64,000 nt of DNA from Thermoleophilaceae bacterium. GTDB taxonomy: Bacteria > Actinomycetota > Thermoleophilia > Solirubrobacterales > Thermoleophilaceae. The position numbers were made by a program, and so were the translations under genes. The notes under the pieces are model-generated. The model was not told the DNA's origin. It did not search any database and was given only the letters and a program-made list of their open reading frames with translations. Below, piece by piece: positions 46,677 through 63,991 of the stretch (its first letter is position 1; each line of letters starts with the position of its first letter). The DNA lies in assembly GCA_036378175.1 (NCBI GenBank), contig DASUWY010000041.1, positions 1 to 64,000 on the forward strand. Direction: 5' to 3'.

Positions 46677-46708
46677 GCGCCTGTTCCACTTCTATCCTGT
46701 TGCGAGGA

Positions 46709-48079
46709 ATGACCGCGCGTCTCGGCTCTCGCGCCGCGCTGATTGCCGGCGCCGTACTGGTAGGGCCCGTAGCGGGGGCTCTGGCGGCACGCAAGCCCAC
46801 CATCAGCCTGTTGCTGTGCCTCGCAGTGCTCTGCGTGGTTGCGCTCGCGGCCCTGGGGGACGCTGCGTTTCCCTGGGCCATCGCCATTGTCGCGGTGGCG
46901 CCCTGGTATCCGTTCACGGGCTCCTCCGCGGCACCGCCGCTCGTCAGGCAGCTCTACCTCTGCCTCGCGGTGATCGCGGCGCCGCTCGTTCCGTGGCTGT
47001 GGTCGCTGGCCAGCGGGGTCCGGCCCCGCAGGCCAAGCAAGCTCATCCTGCTCCTGATGATCCTGTCGCTCGGCTACATCGTGATCGTGTACTCGACGGT
47101 CGGCGGGATCAAGCCGATGGTGCAGAGCGGCACCGTGGGCTTTCTGATGGGCGGCATCACGTTCGCGTGCGCGCGCCGCTTTGTCGATCCACGCGGCTGG
47201 ATAAACGCGTTCTTCTGGGCGTTCGTGTTGCTCGCCGTGATGGGGGCCGCGGCCTTCGCGATGGATCCGGGTGACCGCGTCGGCGCGTTCGTCGGTCACG
47301 GGATCACCTATGGAGCGCTCGTGGTCGCGGTCCTCCCCGCGGCGCTCGTGTACGCCACGCGCCGATCGCGCCTGCTCACGTTCGTGGTGGGGGCGGCAGG
47401 TGCCGCGCTGCTCATCCTCAGCCAGTCGCGAAGCTCGTGGCTCGCCACGCTGATGATCGTCCTGTACGTGATGCTGCTGCTCGCACGGCGAGGTGACATG
47501 CGGCTGATGTTCTATGTGGGGCTCGGTGTCGTGGTAGCGGTGACGGTGGTGCTCACCACCGGCTCCCTGCGTCACATCGTCGAGACTCGTATCAACTCGC
47601 AGGTGGGGCAATCGCAGGCGGTCACACACCGCCAGTTCAGCCTCAACTTCGCCGGCAGCCAGATTCGCCAGCGGCCGGTGTTCGGCGCCGGGGAACCGGG
47701 TTATGCGGCGGCGCAGATCGGGGCGGAGACGGACCTCCAGGCCGTCGATAACGGCTACCTCTCGATCGCCATCGATCTGGGGCTTCTCGGTCTCGCGATC
47801 GCGCTTGTGCCGCTCGCGATAGCGCTCCGCGTTCTGGGCTCGAGCTTACGCTCGGGGGCCGCACCTCCCGCCGACATCGCGCTCGCACTGGGCATCCTCG
47901 GCGTGTCTGTCGTCACGCTCTTCTACGACAGCTTCTACTGGGCACAGCTCGACCTGATGCTCTTTGCGATGGCGGGAACGCTGTCGGCGCGCGCGCTGCG
48001 CCTCGGCGCGCTCGGGCGGATGCGCGATCGCCGTCCTGCTGTGATGCGGCCGGCCGCAGACCGCGGGTTCTTCGCCTAG
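46709..48079 (+). CDS. O-antigen ligase / polymerase-like membrane protein
   Basis: A 456-residue protein with about 11-12 hydrophobic segments. The Wzy_C/O-antigen ligase pattern is seen in PVFGAGEPGYAAAQIGAE (periplasmic loop) followed by DNGYLSIAIDLGLLGLAIAL. It probably polymerises repeat units or ligates the polymer to a carrier outside the membrane. ATG 46709 is the start, with TTG 46700 in frame as an alternative. Convergent with the Wzz-kinase gene, overlapping by four bases. Confidence 0.85.
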   Translation: MTARLGSRAALIAGAVLVGPVAGALAARKPTISLLLCLAVLCVVALAALGDAAFPWAIAIVAVAPWYPFTGSSAAPPLVRQLYLCLAVIAAPLVPWLWSLASGVRPRRPSKLILLLMILSLGYIVIVYSTVGGIKPMVQSGTVGFLMGGITFACARRFVDPRGWINAFFWAFVLLAVMGAAAFAMDPGDRVGAFVGHGITYGALVVAVLPAALVYATRRSRLLTFVVGAAGAALLILSQSRSSWLATLMIVLYVMLLLARRGDMRLMFYVGLGVVVAVTVVLTTGSLRHIVETRINSQVGQSQAVTHRQFSLNFAGSQIRQRPVFGAGEPGYAAAQIGAETDLQAVDNGYLSIAIDLGLLGLAIALVPLAIALRVLGSSLRSGAAPPADIALALGILGVSVVTLFYDSFYWAQLDLMLFAMAGTLSARALRLGALGRMRDRRPAVMRPAADRGFFA

Positions 48080-49719
48080 CGCCGGGTCTGCCCGAGCCGG
48101 CTGCGCCTGCGGTCCCCGCCGCCGTTCGACTGGTGCTCTGCGGCGTCGGCGGCAGGCGTGCGCGTTGGAATGAGCGTGGGCGTGGGGGTGTCGTAGTAGC
48201 TGCTCCGCGTCTTGATCGGGCTGCCCACGATCACCACACCGAACACTCGGCGCCCGCTCTGATCCAGCACACGCTGGGACTCCTGGGCAAGGTCGCGGCG
48301 AGTGACCCCAACGCGACCGACCACGATCACGCCATCGATCTCGTCGAACTGGAGAATCACCCGTGTGTCTGCCACGGGCAGGAGCGGCGGCGGGTCGATG
48401 ACCACGATGTCAGCCGCCTCGCGCGCCGCGGCCAGCACGTCTGGCATGCGCCTCGAGCGGAGCAGGTCAGCAGGGTTTGGCGGGAGCGTTCCGGCCGGCA
48501 GCACCTGCACGCTCCCGTCGCCGTAGGGGTCGACGAGGTATGAGTCGAGCGAGCCGTGCGTGACCAGAAGGTTCGACAGGCCGACCGTCTCCGGGCTGAT
48601 CCCGAGCATCTCCGCGGCCGTTGGGCGGCGCATGTCCGCTTCGATCAGGATGGTCCGCTGTCCGATCGCGGCGAGCGACTTGCAGAGATTCACCGCGACG
48701 GTGCTCTTGCCCTCGCTCTCCATCGCGCTCGCGATGACGAAGCAGCGAGCAAGTCCATCGGGGTCGAGGAAGCGGAGTCCCTCGCGAAGCATCCGGTATC
48801 CCTCGCCCACCGGGCCGCCCAGCTCCAGAGTTTCCTGCGGCGGTCGAGCGGATCGAGGCACCGTGGCGATCACGGTGTAGCCGCGGTACGCGCGCTCGAA
48901 ATCCTCGACGGACTTCACGCGACGATCCACGAATTCGGCGAGGAGCGCGAGCGCCGAGCCGAGCAGAAGGCCGAGCAGCCCCGCCAGGATCACGTTGCGC
49001 TTCGGTCGCGGCGACACCGCATGGCCGCTCGGCTGAGCACGCGCGATCACCTCGGCGTTGCCGGTCTGGAGCGCCTCGAGCTCCTTCAGCTGACGGAGGC
49101 TGGCGGTGAGCCTGGTCCTCTCCGCCGGATCCGTGGTCGTCTGCAGCGACTGCTGTACGAGGTTCTCGGCGTTCACCACGGCCGCGCGGTCGGTGCTCCG
49201 GCGGTAGGTGATGTAGCTGTCGGCGAACGCGTTCGCCACAGCCGCTGCGCTCGTGGGCGAGGTGCGGGTGGCCTTGATGGTCACAACGTTCGAGTCGGTG
49301 CTCGGCTGGACGCTGATCGAGCTGAGCAATGACGAGACCGACTCGTTTGTACGAAGTTCCTTCTGGGCTTGCAGCGCCACGTTGCGAGACGACACGACGT
49401 TCACGTTCGTCTGCAGATCGCGCTTCGGATCCACCCCCGGCTCGAAGAGATTGCTCCCGCCGAAGAGTGCGGCGGTGAAGCCGGGGTCGCGGAAGAGGAG
49501 CTGCGAGGAGGCGGCGTACTGCTTCTGCTCGCGGACCGACAGCACGACCGCGGCGCCGATGCTGAGGATGAGGACGACCACGACGATCAGCTTGCGCCGC
49601 CAGATGACGGCCAGCAGCTCGAACGGGGAGACGGTTGGAGCTGCGTGAGGAGTAGGCATCTCGTCGTACATCACCGTCGCCTCCCGGCGCTCTGGACCGG
49701 TAGCAGCAAGAGTAGCCAT
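48076..49719 (-). CDS. Wzz-type chain-length protein fused to BY-kinase
   Basis: A 547-residue polysaccharide co-polymerase with cytosolic tyrosine kinase. TM1 is KLIVVVVLILSIGAAVVLSV (about 43-62), an extracytoplasmic coiled-coil region follows, and TM2 is NVILAGLLGLLLGSALALLAEF (split). The kinase has Walker A SAMESEGKSTVAVN, Walker A' ILIEADMRRP and Walker B VVIDPPPLLP. The C-terminal tail has only one Tyr pair (SSYYDT) instead of a Tyr cluster, so cycling phosphorylation may be reduced. The single-chain arrangement is like proteobacterial Wzc; Firmicutes use two proteins. Confidence 0.9.
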   Translation of the reverse strand: MATLAATGPERREATVMYDEMPTPHAAPTVSPFELLAVIWRRKLIVVVVLILSIGAAVVLSVREQKQYAASSQLLFRDPGFTAALFGGSNLFEPGVDPKRDLQTNVNVVSSRNVALQAQKELRTNESVSSLLSSISVQPSTDSNVVTIKATRTSPTSAAAVANAFADSYITYRRSTDRAAVVNAENLVQQSLQTTTDPAERTRLTASLRQLKELEALQTGNAEVIARAQPSGHAVSPRPKRNVILAGLLGLLLGSALALLAEFVDRRVKSVEDFERAYRGYTVIATVPRSARPPQETLELGGPVGEGYRMLREGLRFLDPDGLARCFVIASAMESEGKSTVAVNLCKSLAAIGQRTILIEADMRRPTAAEMLGISPETVGLSNLLVTHGSLDSYLVDPYGDGSVQVLPAGTLPPNPADLLRSRRMPDVLAAAREAADIVVIDPPPLLPVADTRVILQFDEIDGVIVVGRVGVTRRDLAQESQRVLDQSGRRVFGVVIVGSPIKTRSSYYDTPTPTLIPTRTPAADAAEHQSNGGGDRRRSRLGQTRR

Positions 49720-49771: not shown

Positions 49772-50911
49772 TCATTGCGCCCGCAGCGTGTTCCATGCAG
49801 GTTTGGGCGAGCCGTTGCGACGGATGAGCCCGAACCAGTGCTCCTTGTCGGTCGGGTCCGTCGCCGCCGGGGAGTCGCGGTAGTTGTAGAGGAACAGCGC
49901 CTTTACCCATTGCGAGTACTTCCCGCGGACGGCAGCGAACACCTCCGCGATGTACTTCGCCTGGTCCGCCTCGGATACGCAGGCATCTGGACTGCCCGGG
50001 CAGGTTGACCAGCCAACCTCCGTGATCCAGAACGGCTTGTTCGCCGCCCCGTGGGCGGCGAACATCTGGTGCAGCTGCTGGATGCGGTCGAACTGGAAAC
50101 GGCTCTCACTGCCCGGCGTAAAGATCGTTGGGCTGCGCGCGGCGTAGGGATGAATCGCCACGCCGTCGATGTAGCGGCTGAGGTCGGGCACGGCGGCGTA
50201 CATCGGGTCCACCCACGGGGAGGGCTTCTTGGACACCGTCAGCCCGCTCGTGTCCGCGGCGATGAGATAGCGAGTCCGCGGGTTCGCGTTGCGCCCGCTC
50301 ACCGCGGCGGCCTTGAACAACCTGGCGTACGTGGCCGGCTGGGGTCCGCCCGGTGAGAACTGCTCCAGGTACGGCTCGTTCCAGATCTCAAACCATGTTG
50401 CCGGGTGGTACGGGACGCGCGCCCGTGCCCGTGCCCGCCAGAGGCTGCCACCAGGCCCGTAGCGCCGAGCGGCACGCGCAACGAACTCGGCGAAGCCCGA
50501 CGGTGGTGCGGCGACGGAGTTCGCCGGGCCGGCCCAGGACGGCGAGCCCATCATCAGCGGAAGGATCGTGATGCCGTGGCGCGCCGCCGTCCGGATCTTC
50601 TTGTCGTAGACCGCCCAGCGCCAGTGCCCGGGAGACGGCTCGACCTGCGGCCACGAAAGCTCCAGCCGCTCCATGCGAACTCCCGCGGCTCTGATCGCGT
50701 TGAGGTTGCACGCGTTGTTCCACACGGAATTCAGGCCGATGATCAGGCTGCCGCGCGCCGGGGACGGTGCGTACGAGACACGCGGACAGCCCGGGTTGGC
50801 GATGGCCGTCTCCGCGCTGCCGTGCGAGCAGCCCGCGGCGAGCAGTGCTACCGCGACCCCGCCGGCAACCCACGTCGCGCCGCCACGGCGGAAACGGGCG
50901 CGGACTCGCAT
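49772..50911 (-). CDS. Lipoprotein TIM-barrel glycosidase-like protein
   Basis: A 379-residue protein with a lipoprotein signal (GGVAVALLAAGC, lipobox LAAGC at about residues 24-28), so it should be anchored outside the membrane. The catalytic domain has RMERLELSWPQVEPSPGHW, the acid/base motif WFEIWNEPYLEQ and the nucleophile motif FWITEVGWSTCP. These are the WNEP and TEVGW signatures of clan GH-A enzymes (GH5/GH39-like). It probably trims the polymer made by this locus or a wall glycan; substrate unknown. It lies 67 bases after the larger glycosidase-like gene on the same strand. Confidence 0.83.
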   Translation of the reverse strand: MRVRARFRRGGATWVAGGVAVALLAAGCSHGSAETAIANPGCPRVSYAPSPARGSLIIGLNSVWNNACNLNAIRAAGVRMERLELSWPQVEPSPGHWRWAVYDKKIRTAARHGITILPLMMGSPSWAGPANSVAAPPSGFAEFVARAARRYGPGGSLWRARARARVPYHPATWFEIWNEPYLEQFSPGGPQPATYARLFKAAAVSGRNANPRTRYLIAADTSGLTVSKKPSPWVDPMYAAVPDLSRYIDGVAIHPYAARSPTIFTPGSESRFQFDRIQQLHQMFAAHGAANKPFWITEVGWSTCPGSPDACVSEADQAKYIAEVFAAVRGKYSQWVKALFLYNYRDSPAATDPTDKEHWFGLIRRNGSPKPAWNTLRAQ

Positions 50912-50978: not shown

Positions 50979-52769
50979 CTACTTCGCAGCCTCCGCCTGG
51001 AGTGCGTAGTACCCCGGCTTCTTCGTGCCGTCGGACCTCACGACCCCATACCAGTCGCACGAGCCGAAGTCGTGGTAGTTGAAGTACATCACCGCGGCCA
51101 CGTACCCCGTGCTGCGTGCCCAGTCGAGGAAGCCCGTGATGTTGGTCGCCTGGTCGGTCTCGGACCACTGGAAGCTGTCGCCAGTGCTCGAGCATTGCGT
51201 GGCGGTCGGCCAGCCGACCTCCGTCACGTAGACCGGCTTGCCGCTGGTGGAATACGCCGTGGCCACCTCGGTCCGGCTGCCGAGCGCGGACTGCGTCCGA
51301 TCGCTTGTGCCGCCGTACGGGTGCACGGTGACTCCGTCCACGTATTGCATCGGGTTTGACACCGCGGTCGAGCCACGCCATTCGTTGCACCAGTAGTTGT
51401 TCCACGACTGGTTCTCGCAGGACGCGAGGATCTTCGGCGCGCTGGTTCCGTAGCGCGTGTGGAAGGCGTTCCAAGTCGCCTGGAGCAGACGTGCATACGC
51501 GTCCGCGTTCGTCTGGGAGCTCGCGTTCGTGCCCCACCACTTGGGCCACCAGGGCTCATTCAGCACCTCAATGAACGGGCACCTGTCCGTGGTGCAGTTC
51601 GAGCCGTACCAGCTCAGCGCGTTGCTCGCCCACGTGGTCGGGTTGAGCGCGCTGATGCCGCTGCTGTTGTACGGGCCGCTGAAGTCGACCTCGACCTTCA
51701 CACCCGCGCTCTCGTAGTTCGCGAAGGTGGTCGTGGACAGGCTGCTGTCGAGACGCGTGTAACCCACCGCGTTCTTCACGTCGCTGACGCCGGTGGTGCC
51801 GTAGCTCGCCCCGTTGAGGCCGACGATCATCGAGGTGGGCGATGGGGTCGGGGTGGGCGTCGGCGTGGTGCCGGTGCCCGTGGAGCCCGTGGTGCCCGTG
51901 GTGCCGGTGGTCCCGGTCGTCCCGGTCGTGCCGGTGGTGCCGGTTGTGCCCGTCGTGCCGGTGGTGGTGCCGGTGGTGGTTGTGCTGCCGCTCGTGGTGG
52001 TCGACTGAAGGGACATCCGGTCCACCCGCAGGTTGCGATCGCACACGCCCTTCACGAGGTAGTCGTTGTTGTAGGCGATCGAGAACTTGTGGGAGCCGGC
52101 GGCGAGCGAGAACGCCGCGGAGTAGCTACTCCAGCTCGTGGTGGAAACGCCCACCGACATCGCCGTCTTGCCATCCACCTGGACAACCATGTTCGGGGCG
52201 CCCTTGCACTGGTCGCCGCGCGCCCGGACCGACAGGGCCGAGGCACTACCGGTCGTGATCGTCTTCGTCACGGTGCCGTTCGCGGGGTAGGAGAGTGCCT
52301 TGCTGGCGCTCGCGAGGCTGTCCGAGAAGACGTGGGTGTCCGAGTTCGTGGGGATCGTCATCGACTCCGCCTCGAAACCCACGACGTCGGTGGAGGGCTG
52401 CGCCGCGGGCGGGTCGCTTTGCTTGCTCACCGGCACCGGCTTCATGCTCTGCTGCGAGAGCACGCTCAGGCGGTGCTGAGCACGAACAAGACGGGTGCGC
52501 GCATGCTTCAGGGCCCGGCGCTGGTGAGCGCAGCGGTTGGCGCGGTGGGTTCGCATGCACCGCCTGAGCGCGTGGCGGGCCTTGAGCACCGCGCGGCGCG
52601 CGGTCGCGCGAGCCTGCTTCGCCCCCTGGAAGGTTTGGACAGAGGTTGCGTGACCGCGCGGCTGGGCGCTAGCCGAGGCGGCCGGGAGGACGAGAGACAA
52701 GAGGCACGCTGCGACGGGGATGGCGAGTCTCCAGCCACGGACGCGCGTTCCTGATCGGGCATACAACAT
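50979..52769 (-). CDS. Secreted glycosidase-like protein with CBM and Thr-Gly linker
   Basis: A 596-residue exported protein. Residues 1-36 are a signal peptide. Residues about 42-105 are a basic, Arg/Ala/His-rich helical region with cysteines. About 125-260 is a beta-sandwich resembling the CBM60-type xylan-binding fold (GFEAESMTIPTNSDTHVFSD ... VQVDGKTAMSVGVSTTSW). About 262-305 is a Thr/Gly tandem linker. The rest is a TIM-barrel domain starting MIVGLNGASYGTTGVSDVKNA, with acid/base FIEVLNEPWWPKWWG and nucleophile VYVTEVGWPTATQC. AAGGAG precedes ATG 52769. Its catalytic domain is a close paralogue of the 54421 gene product. Confidence 0.85.
   Translation of the reverse strand: MLYARSGTRVRGWRLAIPVAACLLSLVLPAASASAQPRGHATSVQTFQGAKQARATARRAVLKARHALRRCMRTHRANRCAHQRRALKHARTRLVRAQHRLSVLSQQSMKPVPVSKQSDPPAAQPSTDVVGFEAESMTIPTNSDTHVFSDSLASASKALSYPANGTVTKTITTGSASALSVRARGDQCKGAPNMVVQVDGKTAMSVGVSTTSWSSYSAAFSLAAGSHKFSIAYNNDYLVKGVCDRNLRVDRMSLQSTTTSGSTTTTGTTTGTTGTTGTTGTTGTTGTTGTTGTTGSTGTGTTPTPTPTPSPTSMIVGLNGASYGTTGVSDVKNAVGYTRLDSSLSTTTFANYESAGVKVEVDFSGPYNSSGISALNPTTWASNALSWYGSNCTTDRCPFIEVLNEPWWPKWWGTNASSQTNADAYARLLQATWNAFHTRYGTSAPKILASCENQSWNNYWCNEWRGSTAVSNPMQYVDGVTVHPYGGTSDRTQSALGSRTEVATAYSTSGKPVYVTEVGWPTATQCSSTGDSFQWSETDQATNITGFLDWARSTGYVAAVMYFNYHDFGSCDWYGVVRSDGTKKPGYYALQAEAAK
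51884..51968 (-). repeat. Nine-base tandem repeat encoding a Thr-Gly-Thr linker
   Basis: On the minus strand, units of about nine bases encode GTT repeated roughly eight times in the glycosidase linker. Third positions vary, so the repeat is old or selected at the protein level. Such repeats are prone to length change. Confidence 0.75.
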
Positions 52770-52964: not shown

Positions 52965-52992
52965 GAAAACCCGCTCGATGCGGGCGGTTTTC
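52965..52992 (-). terminator. Terminator hairpin at the end of the glycosyltransferase gene
   Basis: GAAAACCCGC (52965-52974) pairs with GCGGGCGGTTTTC (52980-52992) around TCGAT. It begins at the stop codon of the minus-strand glycosyltransferase and has a T-run on either strand. It separates that gene from the CBM-glycosidase gene. Confidence 0.75.
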
Positions 52993-54100
52993 AGGTGAAT
53001 CGCTCGTCTGCGGTACTGCTCAGCGCCCGAACGAGGGACTCGATCGAGAGGTGCTCCTGAGCCAGCGCGCGTGCACGAGTGCCCAGGTCGGCCGCCTGGC
53101 CGCTGAGCGCAGACACGAGCGCCGCAGCAAAGCTGTCGGCGTCGCCGGCCGCGAGGAAGTGCTCTCCCGTCCGACCGGCTTCGATCATGTTCGCGGCGTG
53201 CGTGGTGGTCACCACGGGCATGCCGCGTGCGAGCGCCTCCACGAGCTTGAGCGGCGAGCCCCCGCCGGTCAGGAGCGGGACCACCACGGCATCGGCGGCG
53301 GCGTATGCGGCGTCCAGGTCGTCCACGAAACCGAGGATTCGTATGCGCGTGTCCGCTGGAGCGCGCTCCACGCCGCGGCCCACCACGTTCACGGAGGCTC
53401 CCGGAAGGGTGTGCCAGACGCGAGGCATCACTTCGTCCACGAGGTAGGAGAGGCCCTCGGCGTTGGGCGCGTAGGTGAAGTCGCCGACGAACAGCGCCGT
53501 CTCGCTGCCCGGCCGGGCGGCCGGCACCGGTAGGGACGCCACGTCCACCACATTCGGGGCGTGCCGCAGGCGCAGATCGCTGCCCGCGAGCGCCCGCGCC
53601 GAGTCCATGTCGGCGTGGGTGGCCATCCAGCACTCGGCGAACCCTCCGAGCACGCGGCGCTCGAAGCTGCGCAGACGGGGCGTGCCGCGGAACGACGACT
53701 CGAGGTTGTGAGCCACATAGACGGCACTTCGGCGGCGCGCGAGGGGCAGGAGCGCCGCGGCCGCCGTGGGGCCGTCCGCGATCACGCGGACGTCTGCGGC
53801 GGCATCTCGCGCCACCGCCATGACCTCGGGCGAAACGGCCCTGGCGAAGTCAAACGTCGCGCCTCGGGCCAGCGCCCACCCAGCCGTGAAGAGGCGCCGT
53901 GGCCCCCGTGACGGATCCACTCTGCGGAGCGTGACGTTCTTAGCCGCGGCGAGGTCGGAGGCGGGTGAGCCGCCGCCGAAGGGCACGTATGCCACCTCCA
54001 CGTCGCCGAGCCGAGCCAGCGCCTGGATGATCCCGCAGGTGCGCACGCCGCGGCCCGTGGTCCGCGCGGGCGTGTACGAGGTGATCACGAGATCGGGCAT
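52991..54100 (-). CDS. Glycosyltransferase family 4
   Basis: A 369-residue GT-B transferase starting MPDLVITSYTPARTTGRGVRT at ATG 54100; the longer open frame upstream lacks conserved sequence and overlaps the riboswitch. The C-terminal half has LFVGDFTYAPNAEGLSYLVDEV, VVGRGVERAP, ILGFVDDLDAAYAAADAVVVPL and GGSPLKLVEALARGMPVVTT, typical of GT4 enzymes (hyaluronan/colanate WcaI-like group). Part of the polysaccharide locus, and divergent from the riboswitch-controlled glycosidase. Confidence 0.86.
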   Translation of the reverse strand: MPDLVITSYTPARTTGRGVRTCGIIQALARLGDVEVAYVPFGGGSPASDLAAAKNVTLRRVDPSRGPRRLFTAGWALARGATFDFARAVSPEVMAVARDAAADVRVIADGPTAAAALLPLARRRSAVYVAHNLESSFRGTPRLRSFERRVLGGFAECWMATHADMDSARALAGSDLRLRHAPNVVDVASLPVPAARPGSETALFVGDFTYAPNAEGLSYLVDEVMPRVWHTLPGASVNVVGRGVERAPADTRIRILGFVDDLDAAYAAADAVVVPLLTGGGSPLKLVEALARGMPVVTTTHAANMIEAGRTGEHFLAAGDADSFAAALVSALSGQAADLGTRARALAQEHLSIESLVRALSSTADERFT

Positions 54101-54189
54101 TGAGGCCGTGGAGTATCCCGTGCCCGGCGGGCGGTCGCGGGAGGCGCTGGCGCAGTCGTCTGGCAGGTGTGCTTTATTGCTGTGCACAA

Positions 54190-54333
54190 CCAGCCGAGTC
54201 CCCGTCGCCAGAGGCGGGGAACGGGGGAACCACAGGGCCCGCAAAGGCCCACGGGGCGAATCGCACGCCATAGCGCGGCGTAGCGCGATCTTTCTCGCGC
54301 GAGCCCGACAGCTCACCTCGTAGGCGTTCAGAA
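54190..54333 (+). ncRNA. Cyclic di-AMP riboswitch (ydaO/yuaA class)
   Basis: The leader of the 54421 gene contains the class's conserved blocks in order and spacing. ACGGGGGAACCA is at 54221-54232, followed by a hairpin with GGCCC/GGGCC-type arms. GGGGCGAATC is at 54253-54262 (consensus GGGGUGAAUC, one change). After another hairpin region, GAGCCCGACAGCTCACCTCG is at 54301-54320, continuing TAGGCG. This class turns genes off when c-di-AMP is high and usually controls wall hydrolases and potassium or osmolyte transport. A possible expression platform is the GCAGC / GCTGC hairpin near 54356-54376. Confidence 0.93.
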
Positions 54334-54420
54334 AGAAGGGGCGATCCAAGCGGATGCAGCGGGGCCTTTATGGCTGCGCTCAACTGCTGCGCCGAAAGGC
54401 CGAAGACAAGTAAGGAAGCG

Positions 54421-55575
54421 ATGTCTCTCACCAGAACCCTCCGGCGCCGTGCTGGTCGCGCGGCCATTCTCCTGCTCGTAGCCTGCCTCTCGATCACCCT
54501 CATGGAGGGTGCGTCGGCTAGCGCTGCAACCAAGAAGTCCCACCACTGCAAGCGTCACCATCACTGCAAGAAGCACCGCAAGCACCGCAGGCACTGCAGG
54601 AAGCACCATCGCTGCAAGCACTGCAAGAAGCATCATCACTGCAAGCGCCATCGCGCCAAGAAGAAGCCGCAGGTCACGTCGCCGCAGGGTGCCGGAATCG
54701 CGCCTGCTCCCGCCCCCTCGCCGATGATCGTGGGCCTCAACGCCGGCAACTACGGGTCCGCGGGGCTGGCCGACGTACGGAACGCCGTGAGCACGGTCCG
54801 GCTCGACAGCAGCGTGGGCTCCAGCACCTTCCGCAGCTTCGCGAGCTCCGGAGCCAGGATCCTCGTTGACTTCAGCGGCCCGTACACGCAGTCGGGCGCG
54901 AGCGCGATCGACGCCGCGAGCTGGGTGACCAACGCGCTCAACTTCTACGCCGCGAGCTGCACCACCTCGGCATGCCCGTGGGTGCAGGTGCTCAACGAGC
55001 CCTACTGGCCAAGATGGTGGGGCCCGAACGCGGACTCGCAGGCCAACGCCGACGCCTACGCGCGACTCCTGAGGGCCACGTGGCAGGCCTTCCACACCCG
55101 CTATGGCTCGGCCGCGCCCCAGATCCTCGCCGCGTGCGAGGACCAGGACTGGAACCGCTACTGGTGCGACGAGTGGCGTAACTCGCCGGCCGTGCCGAAC
55201 GCGCTCCAGTATGTGGATGCCGTGACCCTGCACGCCTACGGCGGCATCGCCAACCGCAGCCAATCCGCCCTTGGAACGCGAGCCAACGTTGACACCGCCC
55301 ACGCGGTGAGCGGCAAGCCGGTGTACGTGACGGAGGTGGGCTGGCCGACCGCCACACAGTGCGGCAGCACGGGAGACAGCTTCCAGTGGTCGGAGGCCGA
55401 TCAGGCGGCGAACATCACCGGCTTCATGGACTGGGCGAGGACCACCGGTTACATCGCCGGCGTCTTCTACTTCAACTACCGCGATTTCGGTTCCTGCACC
55501 TGGTACGGCGTCGTGCGCGGAAACGGGACCCACAAGCCGGGCTATTACGCGTTGAAGGCCGAAGCGGCCAAATAA
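54421..55575 (+). CDS. Secreted glycosidase-like protein with His/Lys/Cys-rich segment
   Basis: A 384-residue exported protein under a c-di-AMP riboswitch. The N-terminus (SLTRTLRRRAGRAAILLLVACLS ... ASA) is a signal peptide of about 37 residues. Residues about 39-80 are almost only His, Lys, Arg and Cys, with repeated HHCK, HHHCKKH and HCRKHH units. They occupy the place of the basic region and CBM of its paralogue. The TIM-barrel domain starts MIVGLNAGNYGSAGLADVRNA, with acid/base VQVLNEPYWPRWWG and nucleophile VYVTEVGWPTATQC. ATG 54421 follows AAGGAA. Probably acts on surface polysaccharide or wall glycan; the rich segment may bind metal or anionic polymer. Confidence 0.85.
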   Translation: MSLTRTLRRRAGRAAILLLVACLSITLMEGASASAATKKSHHCKRHHHCKKHRKHRRHCRKHHRCKHCKKHHHCKRHRAKKKPQVTSPQGAGIAPAPAPSPMIVGLNAGNYGSAGLADVRNAVSTVRLDSSVGSSTFRSFASSGARILVDFSGPYTQSGASAIDAASWVTNALNFYAASCTTSACPWVQVLNEPYWPRWWGPNADSQANADAYARLLRATWQAFHTRYGSAAPQILAACEDQDWNRYWCDEWRNSPAVPNALQYVDAVTLHAYGGIANRSQSALGTRANVDTAHAVSGKPVYVTEVGWPTATQCGSTGDSFQWSEADQAANITGFMDWARTTGYIAGVFYFNYRDFGSCTWYGVVRGNGTHKPGYYALKAEAAK

Positions 55576-55740: not shown

Positions 55741-56718
55741 ATGAGCGGTGTGACCGTGATCACCGGAGGCGCCGGCTATATAGGCGCAGTAGCGACTGAG
55801 GAGCTGCTGGGCTCCGGCCGGGAGGTGCGCGTGCTCGACGTGCTTCTCCATCAGCAGGACCACATTGCTCGCTCGCTCGAGGAGAAGGGCGCCCGGGTGA
55901 TTCGCGCCGACATCCGTGACGGCGAGAGCCGCCGCGCCGCACTCGAGGGCGCGGACGAGCTCGTGCATCTGGCCGCGATCGTCGGCGATCCCGCGTGTGC
56001 GCTCGATCCAAAGGAGTCGCAGGAGGTGAACGTGGGCGGCAGCCAGGCGCTGGTGGAGGATGCCAAGGCCGCCGGCATCAAGCGCCTCGTCTTCGCGTCC
56101 ACCTGCTCGAACTACGGTCGCATGGCGGATCCAACCGTGCCGATCACGGAGGAGGGTGAGCTCCGGCCTGTGTCGCTGTACGCGGAGCAGAAGGTTGGTA
56201 TCGAGAAGGCGATGCTGGACGGGGACTTTGACGGCCTCAAGCCCACGTGTCTGCGTTTCGCGACCGTGTACGGCGTGGCACCGCGGATGCGCTTCGACCT
56301 CACCGTGAACGAGTTCACGCGGGACCTCTGGTCCGACAGGGAGCTCGAGGTCTTCGGGGAGCAGTTCTGGCGTCCCTACGTACACGTGCGCGACGCGGCA
56401 CGCGCGGTGCGCACGGCGCTCGACGCTCCCGAGGAGAAGGTGGCACACGAGGTGTTCAACGTCGGGCGCTCCGGCGAGAATTACCGGAAGCTGGACATCG
56501 TCGAGGAGATCCAGAAGCGGCTCAATACCGGCAAGGTGAGCTTCGTCCGCCGCGACGAGGATCCTCGCGACTACAAGGTCAGCTTCGACAAGGTCCGTGA
56601 GGTACTTGGCTTCGAAACTACGATGACCGTCCCGGACGGCATCCAAGAGGTGGCCGACGCCCTTTCTGCCGGCGCCTTCGAGGATCCCTTTGACCGCAGC
56701 TACCGAAACATTCCCTGA
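55741..56718 (+). CDS. NAD-dependent sugar-nucleotide epimerase/dehydratase
   Basis: A 325-residue extended SDR. Cofactor motif TGGAGYIG (residues 8-15), HLAAIVGDPA, the catalytic Thr/Ser in FASTCSNYG, YAEQK, and FRPY-like WRPYVHVRDAARA typical of nucleotide-sugar epimerases. An excellent ribosome site (AAGGAGGTG, 55727-55735) precedes ATG 55741. It is the first gene of a run of five overlapping or closely spaced genes for precursor synthesis and export. Its end overlaps the first aminotransferase start by 29 bases. Confidence 0.88.
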   Translation: MSGVTVITGGAGYIGAVATEELLGSGREVRVLDVLLHQQDHIARSLEEKGARVIRADIRDGESRRAALEGADELVHLAAIVGDPACALDPKESQEVNVGGSQALVEDAKAAGIKRLVFASTCSNYGRMADPTVPITEEGELRPVSLYAEQKVGIEKAMLDGDFDGLKPTCLRFATVYGVAPRMRFDLTVNEFTRDLWSDRELEVFGEQFWRPYVHVRDAARAVRTALDAPEEKVAHEVFNVGRSGENYRKLDIVEEIQKRLNTGKVSFVRRDEDPRDYKVSFDKVREVLGFETTMTVPDGIQEVADALSAGAFEDPFDRSYRNIP

Positions 56719-57844
56719 GATCCCCTTCTTCGATCTCCGGATCGAGCAAGAGGATCTCGACGCGGTTGCGGAGACGCTCCGGTCCGGCTGGCTCACGATG
56801 GGCCCCCGCACGGAGGCGTTCGAGCACGCATTCGCGGAGTACGTGGGCAGCCGCCACGCCGTGGCGGTGTCCAGCTGCACGGCGGCGCTTCATCTCGCCT
56901 ACCTGGCCGCGGGGGTCGGGCCCGGCGATGAGGTGATCGTCCCGGCCTTCACGTTCGCGGCCACCGCCGCGGCGGTGATCTACTGCGGCGGTACACCCGT
57001 GTTCGCGGACATCCCCGGCAGGCACGATCTGGGAATCGATCCCGATGACGTCGAGCGCAAGCTCACGGACCGGACGAAGGCGATCTGCGCGGTTCACTTC
57101 GCGGGCTATCCCGCGCCGGTGGATCGCCTGCTGCAGCTCTGCGAGGAGCGCGGCATCGCGTTGATCGAGGATGCCGCACACGGTCCGGGCGCGACCCTTG
57201 GCGGAAAGGGGATCGGGACCTTTGGGCTCGCCGGCTGCTTCAGCTTCTTCTCGAACAAGGTTCTGTCGGTGGGGGAGGGCGGGATGCTCGTGACCGACGA
57301 TGACGAGGTGGCTGCACAGGCGCGCACCCTCCGCTCGTACGGGATGACGTCGGGCACGTGGGCGCGGCACAGCCAGGCCACCAACACCTACGACGTCACG
57401 GCGCTCGGATACAACTACAAGCTCGACGAGCCGCGCTCCGCGCTGCTCATGTCACGGATGCGCCGTCTCGACGGCGACATCGCCCGTCGCCGGGAGTTGA
57501 TCATGCAGTACAGGAGCGCGCTGCGCGGACTGGAGGGGATCACGCTGCCGTACCGTGACGAGGATGTGCCCGTGGCGTCCGGATACGTCATGCCGATCCT
57601 GCTCGACGATCCCGACTTCCAGCGGGAGTTCCGCGCGCGGCTGCGTGAGCGTCACGGCGTTCAGACGAGCGTGTTCTATCCCGCGACGCACACGTTCACG
57701 GCATACCGTGAGCGCTACGCGGACGTCTCGCTACCCCACACGGAGCTGGCCGCGCGCACGGAGGTCACGATTCCGCTCTTCGCGCACCTCACCGACGAGG
57801 ACCAGCAGCGCGTGATCGAGGGCATCGAGGACTCGCTCCGATGA
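56690..57844 (+). CDS. DegT/DnrJ/EryC1/StrS aminotransferase, first copy
   Basis: A 384-residue PLP enzyme that aminates keto-sugars on nucleotide carriers. It has SGWLTMGPRTEAFEHAFAEY, SSCTAALHLAYLA, IEDAAHGPGA, and the PLP lysine in FSFFSNKVLSVGEGGM. The TTG start 56690 lies inside the epimerase gene. With the epimerase and a second aminotransferase it suggests amino-sugars in the polymer. The next gene's ATG overlaps its TGA. Confidence 0.9.
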   Translation: MTAATETFPEIPFFDLRIEQEDLDAVAETLRSGWLTMGPRTEAFEHAFAEYVGSRHAVAVSSCTAALHLAYLAAGVGPGDEVIVPAFTFAATAAAVIYCGGTPVFADIPGRHDLGIDPDDVERKLTDRTKAICAVHFAGYPAPVDRLLQLCEERGIALIEDAAHGPGATLGGKGIGTFGLAGCFSFFSNKVLSVGEGGMLVTDDDEVAAQARTLRSYGMTSGTWARHSQATNTYDVTALGYNYKLDEPRSALLMSRMRRLDGDIARRRELIMQYRSALRGLEGITLPYRDEDVPVASGYVMPILLDDPDFQREFRARLRERHGVQTSVFYPATHTFTAYRERYADVSLPHTELAARTEVTIPLFAHLTDEDQQRVIEGIEDSLR

Positions 57845-58998
57845 GCTGGCGCGTTCCCCTCGCGGACCTCAAGATCCCGGAGGATGACGTCCGGGCGGTG
57901 CTCGAGTGCCTCGAGTCAGGCTGGCTCACCATGGGTCCGCGCACCAAGCAATTCGAGGAAGAATTCGCCGCGTTCGCCGGCTCGCCCCACGCGGTGGCCG
58001 TGTCGAGCTGCACCGCGGCGCTCCACCTGTCCTGCCTTGCCGCAGGCCTTGGCGAGGGCGATGAGGCGATCGTGGCCGGCATGAGCTTCGTGTCCACGCC
58101 GAACGCCGTGCGCTACACGGGCGCGACGCCGGTGTTGTGCGACATCGGCGGCCCGCATGACATGAACATCGACCTCGAGGACGTGGAGCGGCGCATCACC
58201 CCGCGCACGAAGGCCGTGCTGGCCGTCCACTTCTGCGGCTACCCGGCTCGCGTGCTCGAACTGCGGCGGCTATGTGACGAGCGCGGGCTCCTCCTGATCG
58301 AGGACGCCGCCCAGGCGGTGGGCGCCGTGGTGGATGAGTCCGGACGCCGCACCGGGACGGTGGGCGACCTTGCCTGCTTCAGCCTCTTCAGCAAGAATCA
58401 GCTTCCCGTCGGCGAGGGCGGCGTGGTGACCTCGGCAAACGAGGAGCTTGCGGCGAAGGTCCGCTCTCTCCGCTCGCACGCGATGACCAGCGTCACCTGG
58501 GACCGCCACCGCGGCTACGCGGACACCTACGACGTGGTGGATGTGGGCTACAACTACCGCCTCGACGAGCCGCGCGCTGCGCTCGCGCTGTCGCGAATCA
58601 AGCGGCTCGACGGAGACATCGAGTCGCGCCGTGAGCTCGCCCGCACCTACCGCCGCGAGCTTGCGGGACTCGATGGGCTCGAGTTCGTGTGGGACGACGC
58701 CGACGTGGAGCGGGCATCTCACTTTGCCTTCCCGGTGCTGCTCGCCGACCGACCGGCTCGCGACCGCTTTCGGGAACGCCTGCAGGCGCTGGGGGTCCAG
58801 ACCACCTGGTACCCGGCGATTCATCGCTTCAGCGACTACCGCAACACCTACGGAGAGCTGTCGCTCGAGCGGGTGGAGGCGGCGGCAGATCGCCACTGCG
58901 CGCTACCGATGTCCTCGGGCTTCTCGCGCAAGGAGATCGCGATCGTGGTGGAGGCCGTGAAGCAGGCGCTCGCCGAGGAGCTCGGGGCGGCAGCCTGA
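57841..58998 (+). CDS. DegT/DnrJ/EryC1/StrS aminotransferase, second copy
   Basis: A 385-residue paralogue of the preceding gene (shared ESGWLTMGPRTKQFEEEFA, SSCTAALHLS, GYNYRLDEPRAAL), with PLP lysine in FSLFSKNQLPVGEGG. Active-site loops differ (FVSTPNAVRYTG against FTFAATAAAVIYCG in the first copy), so it may aminate a different sugar or position. ATG 57841 overlaps the previous stop, so the two are translated together. Tandem duplication followed by divergence is the likely origin. Confidence 0.9.
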   Translation: MSWRVPLADLKIPEDDVRAVLECLESGWLTMGPRTKQFEEEFAAFAGSPHAVAVSSCTAALHLSCLAAGLGEGDEAIVAGMSFVSTPNAVRYTGATPVLCDIGGPHDMNIDLEDVERRITPRTKAVLAVHFCGYPARVLELRRLCDERGLLLIEDAAQAVGAVVDESGRRTGTVGDLACFSLFSKNQLPVGEGGVVTSANEELAAKVRSLRSHAMTSVTWDRHRGYADTYDVVDVGYNYRLDEPRAALALSRIKRLDGDIESRRELARTYRRELAGLDGLEFVWDDADVERASHFAFPVLLADRPARDRFRERLQALGVQTTWYPAIHRFSDYRNTYGELSLERVEAAADRHCALPMSSGFSRKEIAIVVEAVKQALAEELGAAA

Positions 58999-59027
58999 GC
59001 ATTTCGACGGCGAACGAGGAAGCTTCT

Positions 59028-60461
59028 GTGCCTGGCGGGCCCGGCGTTCTCGGCGGGAGACGCGTAACAGCCGACATCGCGGTCCAGCTGGTTGGACGCG
59101 TGCTGAACATGGTGCTCGGCGCCGTGGTCACCGTCGTCATCGTGCGGGGCCTCGGCGAGCATCGCTTCGGCCAGTGGAGCACGATCATCGCGGTGAGCGA
59201 GCTCCTCGGTTACATCGGCGACCTCGGGCTCGACCGCGTGTCGATCCGGCAGGCCGCCGGCGACCCCGAGCACGAGCCGGAATGGCTGGGCGCGCTCGTG
59301 TCCCTTCGCTTCCTACTGTCGATTCCGGTGACGCTCGCGTTCCTCGCGATCATGCTGGTGATCTCGTCGGACGCGGCGATGCGGGTCAGCTCGGCGGTGA
59401 TCGCCACGCTCTCGATCGTCCCGGCACTGAGCTGCCTCGGCATCGTGTTCCAGCTGCGTGTGCGCAACGACCTCAGCATGGTGGTGCTCACCATCAACAG
59501 CGTGCTCTGGACCGCGTCCGGCCTCGTGCTGGCTGCGCTCTCCGGCAGCATCGTGGCCTTCTCGCTGGCATTCGTCGGTTCGTTCATGGTCTCGCTGGCA
59601 GCGCAGACCGTGTTCGTGCGCCGCATGGCAAAGGTGCGCATCCGCGCCTCGCGGCCGCTGTGGGGCGAGCTCGCGCGCCTTTCGGCACCCGTGGGAATCG
59701 CCGCGATGCTCACGTTCGCGTACGGGCGGATCGACCAGGTGCTCGTGTTCAACATCGCGGGTTCGGACTCCGCCGGCGTCTACGGCGCGATGTACCGGAT
59801 CCTCACGACGAGCGCGTTCGTGCCCATCGCCGTGATGACCACGCTGTTCCCAATCCTCTCCCAGGTGGATCGCGCCCGGATGCGCACGCTGGTGCAGAAG
59901 GCGGCCGAGTACCTGGCGATGGCGTCGCTGCCGATCTTCGCCTTCGTGCTGGTGGCCGCCGGACCGTTGGTGCGGCTCCTGTTCGGCCCCGAGTTCGTGC
60001 ACGGCCAGAACGCGCTCAGGGTTCTGATGGGGGCTTTCGTGGCGATCGGCTTCGGCTACGTGGCCGGGACGATGATCCTCGTGCTGCGGCTCCAGCGCAT
60101 GTTCGTGATCTACGCGGTCGCCGCGCTCGTGGTGAACGTGGCGCTGAACCTCATCTTCATCCCGCACTACGGCTTCATGGCCGCGGCGTGGGCCACTCTC
60201 GCCACCGAGCTGCTCGTCCAGATCCTCACCATTCGCCTCGTGCTGAAGCAGCTCCCGCTGAGGCCAAAACTGGGCCGTCTGCTGCGAATCGTCATTGCTG
60301 CCGCCGGGATGGGGCTGGCGGTGTTCGGGTTGCACTCGGCCGGGGCGGGGCTGGCCTGGCTGGTGCTGGCCGCGGCCGTGACCTACCCCGTGCTGCTGCT
60401 CGCGCTTCACGCGCTCGTGCCGTCCGAGGTGAAGGCGCTGGTGCGGCGGGAGGCGGTGTGA
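59028..60461 (+). CDS. MOP-superfamily polysaccharide flippase (Wzx-like)
   Basis: A 477-residue membrane protein with about 14 hydrophobic segments. It begins TADIAVQLVGRVLNMVLGAVVTVVIVRGLGEHRFGQW, split across TM1-2, a classic polysaccharide-transporter pattern. It should flip the lipid-linked repeat unit to the outside for the Wzy-like polymerase. GTG 59028 is preceded by GAGGA at a good distance. Co-transcribed with the aminotransferases and the next glycosyltransferase. Confidence 0.88.
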   Translation: MPGGPGVLGGRRVTADIAVQLVGRVLNMVLGAVVTVVIVRGLGEHRFGQWSTIIAVSELLGYIGDLGLDRVSIRQAAGDPEHEPEWLGALVSLRFLLSIPVTLAFLAIMLVISSDAAMRVSSAVIATLSIVPALSCLGIVFQLRVRNDLSMVVLTINSVLWTASGLVLAALSGSIVAFSLAFVGSFMVSLAAQTVFVRRMAKVRIRASRPLWGELARLSAPVGIAAMLTFAYGRIDQVLVFNIAGSDSAGVYGAMYRILTTSAFVPIAVMTTLFPILSQVDRARMRTLVQKAAEYLAMASLPIFAFVLVAAGPLVRLLFGPEFVHGQNALRVLMGAFVAIGFGYVAGTMILVLRLQRMFVIYAVAALVVNVALNLIFIPHYGFMAAAWATLATELLVQILTIRLVLKQLPLRPKLGRLLRIVIAAAGMGLAVFGLHSAGAGLAWLVLAAAVTYPVLLLALHALVPSEVKALVRREAV

Positions 60462-60462
60462 G

Positions 60463-61704
60463 GTGAGGATCCTCGTGGTGAGCAACCTCTATCCGCCGGT
60501 GCAGGCCGGGGGGTATGAGGCGCGCTGCGCGGCCACGTCAGAAGCGCTGCGGGCGTGGCATGACGTTCACGTGCTCACCTCCACGCGCGGGCGCCCGCAC
60601 GCTCCGGCCGATCCACGGATCCGGCGCGAGCTCCCCATCCTGCGCACGGGCAGGAGCTCGATCGCGATCGCACCGCTGGCATCCGCGCGGGCCATGAAGG
60701 CGATGCGGAAAAACCTCGCCGAGATCAGCCCCGACCTGATCTTCGTCTGGAACGGCTCTGGTGTCCCGCACGCCGCCCTCCAGGTGGCGCACGAGAGCGG
60801 GATACCGGTCGCTTACAGCGTCGGCGAGTACTGGTTCGGCCGCCTCTACGAAGCGGATGCGTTCGCGCGCTTCCTGCTACCCGGGCGCGTGGGCCTGCGA
60901 GGCGCGTGGGCGCGCGTCGCACGCGCCCTGAACCGGCTTCCCGCACTCCGTGTGGATCCGCTGAGCCCGGCGCGCGCGGCGATCTGCTGGAACAGCGAGG
61001 CCACCCGCCGAATCTGCGGTATCCCGCCGATGATCACGCCCACCCACGAGGTCACCATCTACCCGGCTGTGGCGGCACCCGAGCTCTGGTCAGCCGTCGA
61101 CCGGCAACCCGCCGCGAAGCCGACGATTGCCTACGTCGGCAGGGTCGAGCCCGTGAAGGGCCCCGACGTGGCGTACAGGGCGCTCGCGGACCTGCGCGAC
61201 CGCCACGGCGTGGAGGCGAGGCTCGTGCTCGCCGGCTCCTACAGCGGCTCCGCACGGGCCGAGCTCGACCGCCTGGCCGTCGATCTCGGCATAAGCCACC
61301 TTGTGGAGCTGCGCGGCCGCCTCGATCCGGGGGAGGTTGCCCGCCTGCTCGGGGAGGCGCACGCTCTCGTCGTCCCGTCTGTGTGGGAGGAGCCGTTCGG
61401 AATCGTGCTGCTCGAGGCCGCTCTCGCCCGCGTGCCGGTGGTGGCCGCGCGCAGTGGAGGCATGCCCGAGGCGTTGCGCGAGCCTTCGGAGGCTCTGTTC
61501 TTCTCGATAGAGGATGCCGCTGGCTGCTCGGACGCCCTCGCGCAGACGCTGGGCGATCCCGCCGGCACGCAAGCTCGTGTCGCGGCCGCGTACGACCGGG
61601 CCACCTCACTGTCCTTCGATCGCTACGTCGCGGAGATGAACCAGTTCGTGATCGACGCCCGCGAGTCGTTCGACGAGAGCGGCCGGAAGGCCGTGGCTCG
61701 TTAG
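60463..61704 (+). CDS. Glycosyltransferase family 4
   Basis: A 413-residue GT-B enzyme starting VRILVVSNLYPPVQAGGYEAR, with a N-terminal acceptor domain and C-terminal donor domain showing IAYVGRVEPVKGPDVAYRAL, LRGRLDPGEVARLLGEAHALVVPS and EEPFGIVLLEAALARVPVVAA. GTG 60463 follows the flippase stop by one base. The last gene of the plus-strand run; it meets two minus-strand glycosyltransferases, overlapping the first by four bases. Confidence 0.88.
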   Translation: MRILVVSNLYPPVQAGGYEARCAATSEALRAWHDVHVLTSTRGRPHAPADPRIRRELPILRTGRSSIAIAPLASARAMKAMRKNLAEISPDLIFVWNGSGVPHAALQVAHESGIPVAYSVGEYWFGRLYEADAFARFLLPGRVGLRGAWARVARALNRLPALRVDPLSPARAAICWNSEATRRICGIPPMITPTHEVTIYPAVAAPELWSAVDRQPAAKPTIAYVGRVEPVKGPDVAYRALADLRDRHGVEARLVLAGSYSGSARAELDRLAVDLGISHLVELRGRLDPGEVARLLGEAHALVVPSVWEEPFGIVLLEAALARVPVVAARSGGMPEALREPSEALFFSIEDAAGCSDALAQTLGDPAGTQARVAAAYDRATSLSFDRYVAEMNQFVIDARESFDESGRKAVAR

Positions 61705-62825
61705 GCGCCCCCGGCGCCGGCCTCGCGGAAGATCCGCTCTATGCGTTCTGCCACCACGGGCGCGTCATACGTGGCGAGCGCGCGGTCCAGTGCGGCGGCT
61801 CCCTCGCGCTTCAAGCGCTCCGGGTCGTTCATGTAGTCCCTCAGGATCTGCGCCACCGCGGCCGGGTCGTTCTCCGGGGAGGCAATCTCACCGATGCCGT
61901 CGGTGATCATGTCGGCCACGCCCATCGGACCGGTGGAGATCGCGGGCCGGCCGGCGAGCCAGGGCAGGATCACCGCTCGCGGCTGTCCCTCCGCGGGGCT
62001 CGGACAGAACACGCCGAGCTCGAACGCCGAGGTGTAGTCCGCCACGTCATCGCCCGGTGTGCGAACGAAGTGCACGCGCGTGCCCAGGGGCTCTGCCTGC
62101 CCGCGAAGCTCCGCCTCGGTCTCGCCTGCTCCAGCCAGGATCAGATGGGCGCGCTCGTCGAGCGTCTTCACGGCCTCAACCAGCACGTCGTTGCGCTTCT
62201 TCGGGTGGAAGCGCGAGATGCAGCCGATCACGAAGGCGTCGTCGGGAATACCGAGCTCCCGGCGGACCCGTGCCCGGCCCTCGGCCGTGAAGCGGAGGTC
62301 GTGGCCGCGCATCACGTTCGGCACGAACTCGACCTTGTGCGGATCCACGCCCATCGACACGACCGAGTCGACGGTGCCCTGCGAGATGGCCATGACGTAA
62401 TCGGCGTGACGTGCGGCGTCGCGGTAGAGCCAGGCGCCGGGACCGTTCCGCATCTGGACGGGCACCGGGCCCCACTCGGCCCACACGAGCGCGGGCCGAA
62501 GCGAGCGCGGCAGCTGCCGGCCCATGAGCTGCTCCTTCTTGTAGTGCAGGAGGAGGACCTCATAGGGTGCCTCGGCCTGGAGCGCGCGGCGCAGGCGCAG
62601 CAGGTACTGCGGCCATCTCACACCGACCTTCAGCCAGTCGCTTCCGGACAGCTTCGGCCCGATGTCGATGGTGCGCACGCGTACGCCGGTGTCGCGCGCG
62701 ATGGACGGACGGTTCGTGACCATCACGGGATCGTGGCCGCGTTGCTTGAGCGCCCACAGCATCTCCATCGCTGCGAACTCCGCTCCGCCGTCGGCGTCCG
62801 TGGTCAAGACGGAGACGATCTTCAA
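61701..62825 (-). CDS. Glycosyltransferase family 4
   Basis: A 374-residue GT-B enzyme starting LKIVSVLTTDADGGAEFAAME at TTG 62825, which overlaps the stop of the upstream gene (TTGA). Donor-site features are GCISRFHPKKRNDVLVEAVKTL, LILAGAGETEAEL and AEGQPRAVILPWLAGRPAI. A frame running further upstream is only the shadow of the neighbouring gene. It likely works with the next gene on a common glycan. Confidence 0.86.
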   Translation of the reverse strand: MKIVSVLTTDADGGAEFAAMEMLWALKQRGHDPVMVTNRPSIARDTGVRVRTIDIGPKLSGSDWLKVGVRWPQYLLRLRRALQAEAPYEVLLLHYKKEQLMGRQLPRSLRPALVWAEWGPVPVQMRNGPGAWLYRDAARHADYVMAISQGTVDSVVSMGVDPHKVEFVPNVMRGHDLRFTAEGRARVRRELGIPDDAFVIGCISRFHPKKRNDVLVEAVKTLDERAHLILAGAGETEAELRGQAEPLGTRVHFVRTPGDDVADYTSAFELGVFCPSPAEGQPRAVILPWLAGRPAISTGPMGVADMITDGIGEIASPENDPAAVAQILRDYMNDPERLKREGAAALDRALATYDAPVVAERIERIFREAGAGGA

Positions 62826-63991
62826 GCCGAAGCCTGTTCGATCGCCGTGACCATCTCGTCGAGCCGCTCGTCCCAGGAATGACCGCTCGCGAGCCGCGAG
62901 CGCTCCCTGCGGCGCTCCGGGTTGTCCTCGGCCAGGAGCTCGTCGAGCCGCGCGGCCGCGCTGTCCGCATCCGCGGCGGTCACGACGCCGTCGACCCCCG
63001 CGAGCGAGGGGAGAGGGGTGGTGACGACCGGCAGGCCGGCGGCGAGGTATTCGTACACCTTCAGCGGAAAGATGCTCGCGGTGAGGTCGTTGAGCGCGTA
63101 CGGGATGATGCCCGCGTCGGCGCCGCGCAGCACCTCGGGCAGCTTGTCGTGGCGGCGAGCGCCGAGCAGGTGAATGTTCGGCTCGGCCTCCAGTGCGGCG
63201 ACGTCGGTGCCGGGATCGCCCGCGCCCACGGGCCCGACGAGAGCGAAGCTCCACTCGGGCCGCGCACGGGCCAGGGATACCAGGAGGCCTAAGTCCAGCT
63301 TCGTCGCCACCACGGCGCCGATGAAGACGATCCGCGGCCTCGGCAGGGCCGCCATCGCCGCGTCCACGGGCCCGTGGTCGAGCGCCGACGCGAACAGCGG
63401 CGTGTCGGCCACGTTCGGCATCGCCACCACGCGATCCGAGAGCTCGCGCATGCGCGCGGCGAGCGGCTCCGACGTCGCGAAGATCACGTCGGCCGACGCC
63501 GCGTAGCGTCGCTCCGCCTGGCGGAAGCTCTCGGCATCCACCCCCTTCTGTGCCGCGATGTCGTCCACGCAGTGGTAGATCACGCTGGAGGGGCGCAGCG
63601 TGTCAATCAGCGCCTCGGCCTGGGGATTGTAAGCCCACAGCACCGGTGCGGCTATTCCGAGGCGGCGCGCGGCGCGGCGGATCAAGCGGGGAAGCAGGCG
63701 GCGGTTCACGGCGCGGACCAGCCGGTACCGGTGGAAGGGCAGGACGAGTGGCGAGAGCACGTACACGCCGTCGTCGGCAAGCCGGGGTGGGGCGATCCCG
63801 CGTACCAGCCGGTTGAGCGCGCGGCGCAGGTCCCGGGCCGCCAGCTGTGGCTGGCGCAGCCCCAGCGACTCCACGAACAGCACCCGGTGGTCGCGGCCCA
63901 GCCGCGACATCAGGTGGTGCTGGTTGGTGCGAATCTCGGTGTCCCAGTCGGCGCAGCCGACGCACACGATGTCGCGGCCGTTCAGCGTCAC
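62822..63991 (-). CDS. Glycosyltransferase (GT4-like, WcaI/TuaH-type)
   Basis: A 389-residue transferase beginning VTLNGRDIVCVGCADWDTEIRTNQHH at GTG 63991, nine bases from the window edge, so a start slightly further upstream cannot be excluded. The region VIYHCVDDIAAQKG and FATSEPLAARM, the donor-site PRIVFIGAVVATKLDLGLL, and DLTASIFPLKVYEYLAAGLPVVTT match teichuronate/colanate-type glycosyltransferases. The overlap with the next gene shows translational coupling. Confidence 0.82.
   Translation of the reverse strand: MTLNGRDIVCVGCADWDTEIRTNQHHLMSRLGRDHRVLFVESLGLRQPQLAARDLRRALNRLVRGIAPPRLADDGVYVLSPLVLPFHRYRLVRAVNRRLLPRLIRRAARRLGIAAPVLWAYNPQAEALIDTLRPSSVIYHCVDDIAAQKGVDAESFRQAERRYAASADVIFATSEPLAARMRELSDRVVAMPNVADTPLFASALDHGPVDAAMAALPRPRIVFIGAVVATKLDLGLLVSLARARPEWSFALVGPVGAGDPGTDVAALEAEPNIHLLGARRHDKLPEVLRGADAGIIPYALNDLTASIFPLKVYEYLAAGLPVVTTPLPSLAGVDGVVTAADADSAAARLDELLAEDNPERRRERSRLASGHSWDERLDEMVTAIEQASA

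Follow-up and report, generated by a model that had tools for sequence, protein, structure and literature searches.

Actinobacterial c-di-AMP riboswitches have almost exclusively wall-related targets (PMC9960051, PMC10117811, PMC11481543), and those known are peptidoglycan hydrolases. For the Corynebacterium glutamicum nlpC switch, translational control has been proposed, with c-di-AMP lowering expression (PMC9960051), and for Streptomyces coelicolor rpfA, transcription termination has been reported as the mode of switching (PMC10117811). A second point of reference is provided by the PslG/GH39 hydrolases of exopolysaccharide loci (PMC6813494, PMC9075953), GH-A barrel enzymes that are encoded within the polysaccharide locus itself. 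The stretch of DNA analyzed here, 64 kb from a Thermoleophilaceae bacterium (the window), resembles the rpfA/nlpC systems in its aptamer family, its secreted hydrolase target and the single disA of its genome. It differs from them in that the target is a clan GH-A glycosidase within a polysaccharide locus, whose start codon lies at a distance from the aptamer and behind a short ORF. As in the PslG systems, a GH-A barrel is encoded within a polysaccharide locus; by contrast, the window glycosidase is below family-level similarity to PslG, is putatively under an RNA switch, and belongs to an actinobacterial Wzx/Wzy locus.

The aptamer (54182–54340, + strand) is a full-length cmscan match to RF00379 (ydaO/yuaA; model positions 1–134) at 67.9 bits (gathering score 38; E = 1.3e-13 for the full 64-kb window), and this single match is the only one to any Rfam family above threshold in the window. 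Alignments show that the core blocks are conserved and the arms paired, and the element sits in leader position, on the same strand as and 5′ of a coding gene, although at an atypical spacing. The aptamer per se is thus an ordinary member of its family. The folding energy of the leader RNA showed no significant gain over shuffled sequences. The 4.29-Mb genome carries 11 RF00379 aptamers, this one included, and one diadenylate cyclase domain (96.4 bits), found in a 370-aa DisA ORF with DGA and RHR motifs 3′ of a RadA-like ORF. c-di-AMP aptamers were present in all 61 sampled genomes of the order (1 to 12 each) and in 10 of 60 genomes sampled phylum-wide.

The gene downstream of the aptamer (54421–55575, +) encodes a predicted secreted clan GH-A glycosidase of 384 aa, composed of a signal peptide, a segment rich in His, Lys, Arg and Cys, and a (β/α)8 domain from about residue 102. 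The frame is open to 55575, and ATG 54421, which yields the signal peptide, is the most likely start, in preference to the first ATG at 54370 (401 aa). Pfam reports Glyco_hydro_cc (PF11790, GH128) at 33.1 bits (cut-off 21), albeit over only part of the profile (62–209 of 237). A single-sequence structure prediction (pLDDT 40) was replaced by an AlphaFold2 model from a four-sequence alignment, which gave a barrel with pLDDT 80.3 and pTM 0.84; Foldseek matched this model to GH53 (E = 5e-9), followed by GH10, GH157, GH128 and other clan GH-A members, so that GH128 is among the fold matches while the best ones are to other GH-A families. Profile searches gave matches to a GH39 xylosidase (2e-7) and to PslG (2.4e-6) with a profile that includes a GH39-like neighbor, and none with the single sequence; a direct sequence search of the protein against the PDB returned spurious matches only. 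E193 in LNEP (54997–54999) and E305 in TEVGW (55333–55335) are the putative acid/base and nucleophile, the glutamates expected after strands 4 and 7 in clan GH-A, and the NEP and TEVGW motifs are invariant across the paralogs in the window and a homolog from Saccharibacteria. Between the signal peptide and the catalytic domain, a 45-residue stretch (encoded by 54529–54663) contains 15 His, 13 Lys, 8 Arg and 6 Cys and no acidic residue; it may bind metal or an anionic polymer.

Three close relatives of the glycosidase were found, none of which has an aptamer: two are encoded in its own genome, at 67% and 49% identity, and the third (L054:3728-5089 (+), 38%) in a Saccharibacteria metagenome-assembled genome. 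The last is the sole close homolog among GTDB contigs outside the genome, a distribution that suggests horizontal transfer. The same-genus genome G001 contains no homolog, and no ortholog of the aptamer–glycosidase arrangement was found there or among the GTDB contigs. An RNA scan of 30 glycosidase loci likewise detected no further aptamer.

The surrounding genes comprise, by Pfam, the components of a Wzx/Wzy-type system: flippase, polymerase, chain-length protein, glycosyltransferases and nucleotide-sugar enzymes. A Wzy-like O-antigen ligase/polymerase (46679–48079, +) is followed by a Wzz/BY-kinase-like chain-length protein (48076–49719, −), with PF04932, PF02706 and PF13807 matched over 46679–49719. 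Next come a PslG/GH39-like glycosidase (49772–50911, −), in which the resemblance to PslG is stronger than in the aptamer-led enzyme, and a paralog (50979–52769, −) in which a CBM60 module and a Gly/Thr-rich linker are joined to the same glycosidase domain (67% identical); both lack an aptamer. A glycosyltransferase (52991–54106, −; PF13692, start judged from domain content) is divergent from the riboswitch, and an NDP-sugar epimerase, two DegT/DnrJ aminotransferases, a Wzx-like flippase and two more glycosyltransferases occupy 55741–63254. Five clan GH-A genes in all lie in or beside the locus, at about 49.8, 51, 54.4, 77.9 and 79 kb of the contig (C41), and only that at 54.4 kb has an aptamer; those beyond the window fall at about 77870–79857. 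The first-pass annotation had described a ydaO-class c-di-AMP riboswitch ahead of a secreted TIM-barrel glycosidase flanked by polymer-synthesis genes, and had named an RF00379 search and a check for disA as ways to examine it. Each part of that description is borne out: the covariance-model match exceeds the gathering threshold, signal peptide, PF11790 match and predicted GH-A barrel agree with the proposed enzyme, Pfam places polymer-synthesis genes on both sides, and one intact disA is present.

To place this target in context, the first gene after each of 207 distinct aptamers was classed by sequence motifs; most of these aptamers come from 39 genomes of the order. Motifs recognized 65 NlpC-like, 54 M23, 24 transglycosylase/Rpf-like and 19 RlpA-like targets. 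The 45 left over were classed by reading and comprised 16 M23-, NlpC- or transglycosylase-like proteins, 5 CAP proteins, 17 short proteins (mostly with a single membrane span), 2 PD40-like proteins, 1 unclear case and 4 enzymes acting on other polysaccharides. Peptidoglycan or other wall hydrolases account for about 180 of the 207 targets. This agrees, as do published systems (PMC9960051, PMC10117811), with the earlier statement that Rpf- and NlpC-type hydrolases are the usual actinobacterial targets, and the accompanying claim that a glycosidase is unusual also holds, the type being rare among the targets surveyed.

The four enzymes of non-peptidoglycan polysaccharides (4/207) are two GH-A glycosidases and two polysaccharide lyases, of which one is clear and the other weak, which makes this a rare but recurrent type of target. 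The second glycosidase, recovered by matching the coordinates of aptamer and protein searches, is encoded in a genome from another family of the order (G044), constitutes an independent glycosidase–aptamer pair, and is PslG/GH39-like, with 30% identity over 371 aa to the product of the window's 49772–50911 gene; it lies outside any polysaccharide locus. The clear lyase (L074:163-1362 (+), genome G011) combines CBM60, shared with the paralog in the window, with PF14099 (158 bits). As in the window, an aptamer directly precedes a secreted enzyme of non-peptidoglycan polysaccharide, but the catalytic domain is different and the start codon is only 3 nt from the aptamer. The weak case (L100, in G044) matches PF14099 at 25 bits, below the cut-off of 29.9. 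A sulfatase 277 nt 3′ of the aptamer at L225 was set aside as a target because a 40-aa membrane ORF intervenes. A further 20 aptamers, 19 of which came from beyond the surveyed set, had no glycosidase as target; those targets that could be recognized were wall hydrolases or else transporters and stress proteins. In the literature found by searching, titles and abstracts report no glycosidase or polysaccharide-lyase target of a c-di-AMP riboswitch, though earlier target tables may mention one; to judge from the searchable literature, the new points are this class of target, the fact that it recurs independently, and the evidence of leader copying given below.

Several aptamers are followed by genes for short proteins. 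A recurrent small protein with a disordered N terminus containing RRTVxIxG, the motif RPDRxAxWAVxLGxFL and one C-terminal membrane span is found under about 13 of the 207 aptamers (L062, L075, L077, L106, L108, L111, L143, L152, L208, L210, L214, L217 and L235). Single-span membrane peptides of about 40 residues directly follow the aptamers at L091, L170 and L225 and possibly represent another orphan family. In the window's own genome, an ORF for a short soluble protein of 79 aa begins 4 nt after a c-di-AMP aptamer (L004).

The closest aptamers to that of the window precede a PD40-like gene of the same genome (L006, G000:C61) and its same-genus counterpart (L209). A block of about 180 bp (54168–54347, +) shares 83% identity with the L006 leader over 193 aligned columns, and blastn of the 3.1-kb window locus against the 3.1-kb L006 locus gave this single match, with unrelated flanks. 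The common block runs from a probable −10 element through the aptamer and ends just past the Shine–Dalgarno sequence. Within it, the conserved −10 element TTTATT (54173–54178, +) is a TTNNNT rather than a TANNNT variant; order-wide, 52 of 72 loci have TANNNT no more than 22 nt from where the aptamer starts, compared with 0–4 of 72 in control windows, and a scan of the window leader for the sigma-70 promoter consensus found none. At the 3′ end, the purine-rich tail AGAAAGAAGGGG (54330–54341, +) is the presumed Shine–Dalgarno sequence of the cassette, and in 156 of 207 loci an SD-like motif starts within the 3′ tail of the aptamer match. Across the order, promoter, sensor and ribosome site are one compact unit. 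The G044 glycosidase provides a parallel: its aptamer is 92% identical to the RlpA-leader aptamer of the same genome, and the common block spans 236 columns, from near the −10 element into the first codons. At the sequence level, the alignment demonstrates that the window leader and that of an envelope-type gene in its genome share descent; glycosidase genes thus appear, in at least two cases, to carry copies of resident envelope-gene leaders. Because the envelope-gene versions are more widely distributed, copying probably proceeded from envelope gene to glycosidase. The PD40/TolB-like proteins themselves (L006:160-1494 (−) and L209:313-1644 (−)) are secreted, and in each of the two genomes of the genus the gene follows a c-di-AMP aptamer; the L006 protein has no Pfam match.

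The copied aptamer scores nearly as high as its source (67.9 against 72.8 bits), its two variable arms are changed in sequence and length relative to the source copies with pairing kept, and all differences in the core occur as variants in other aptamers of the order: GACAG in 58 of 207, GCTCAC in 35 and both together in 5; GACAGCTCAC is present in 5 of 207. Score, paired arms and core variants argue against decay of the copy, which is in itself no proof of function.

How such an aptamer might act is indicated by the anatomy of its relatives. Of the 207 loci, 181 have their chosen start codon no more than 12 nt from the aptamer, and only one leader shows a terminator-like hairpin ahead of the start, located beyond a misassigned ORF, so that control across the order is probably translational. 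Control could instead be exerted at transcription by attenuation, perhaps with the help of Rho, in the manner reported for S. coelicolor rpfA (PMC10117811), and the long spacer of the window leader could hold a Rho-dependent site; this appears unlikely given that a scan of 54080–54520 found no intrinsic terminator, that the Shine–Dalgarno sequence is embedded in the aptamer tail at most loci of the order, and that the C. glutamicum nlpC switch appears translational (PMC9960051). In the window, the glycosidase start lies 80 nt 3′ of the aptamer, behind a 19-codon ORF (MQRGLYGCAQLLRRKAEDK; 54354–54413, +) in a frame other than that of the glycosidase. This ORF starts 12 nt past the aptamer Shine–Dalgarno sequence, and its TAA overlaps the glycosidase's own, AAGGAAG (54412–54418, +), which has a short spacing to ATG 54421. 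From this arrangement we infer coupling: re-initiation after the 19-codon ORF would extend the effect of the switch to the glycosidase, a reading based on layout rather than on comparative support. The same distance and separate Shine–Dalgarno sequence also mean that translation of the glycosidase could bypass the switch, the copied aptamer being transcribed while the enzyme is made independently and c-di-AMP has little effect. The lack of a conserved orthologous arrangement is in keeping with such independence, which nonetheless seems improbable in view of the undecayed aptamer and the recurrence of glycosidases and lyases under aptamers in other genomes.

A working switch might, on the other hand, serve an enzyme whose substrate is a glycopolymer bound to the wall or another of its carbohydrates, as an extension of the ordinary wall-hydrolase regulon and not as remodeling of the locus product. 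Wall-active proteins make up most targets in the order, the segment rich in His, Lys, Arg and Cys would favor binding to anionic wall polymers, and the homologous aptamer-led glycosidase of G044 stands outside any polysaccharide locus. Yet the window gene lies inside a Wzx/Wzy locus together with other GH-A genes, and its profile similarity is to PslG and GH39 rather than to known peptidoglycan hydrolases; a wall substrate is possible, if somewhat doubtful.

The reading we favor, at a probability of roughly 0.6, is that translation of the secreted clan GH-A glycosidase is under a functional c-di-AMP OFF-switch, via the coupled leader ORF, and that the enzyme trims surface polysaccharide. By analogy with C. 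glutamicum nlpC (PMC9960051), and judging by the leader anatomy seen across the order, bound c-di-AMP would stabilize the aptamer beside the Shine–Dalgarno sequence and block ribosome entry, so that high c-di-AMP would lower expression. The switch would act first on the 19-codon ORF, whose termination beside the glycosidase Shine–Dalgarno sequence would couple the two. The glycosidase would then trim or release a polysaccharide of the cell surface, the likeliest candidate being the polymer made by its own Wzx/Wzy locus, and would do so in concert with the wall hydrolases that respond to the same signal. Judged from sequence, both regulation of the glycosidase and a link to polysaccharide remodeling are plausible. 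A broader proposal, which we hold tentatively and at a little short of even odds, is that the c-di-AMP riboswitch of this order may be a portable promoter–aptamer–ribosome-site unit that is copied within genomes to recruit surface genes, including those for polysaccharide-degrading enzymes, and that here controls a glycosidase through a coupled leader peptide.

If the switch works, c-di-AMP would also determine how much is made of enzymes cutting surface polysaccharides, and turgor or K+ status would be linked not only to the wall but also to the capsule or matrix. Source leaders and their copies, taken as pairs, offer a concrete and directly testable case of regulon growth by leader duplication.
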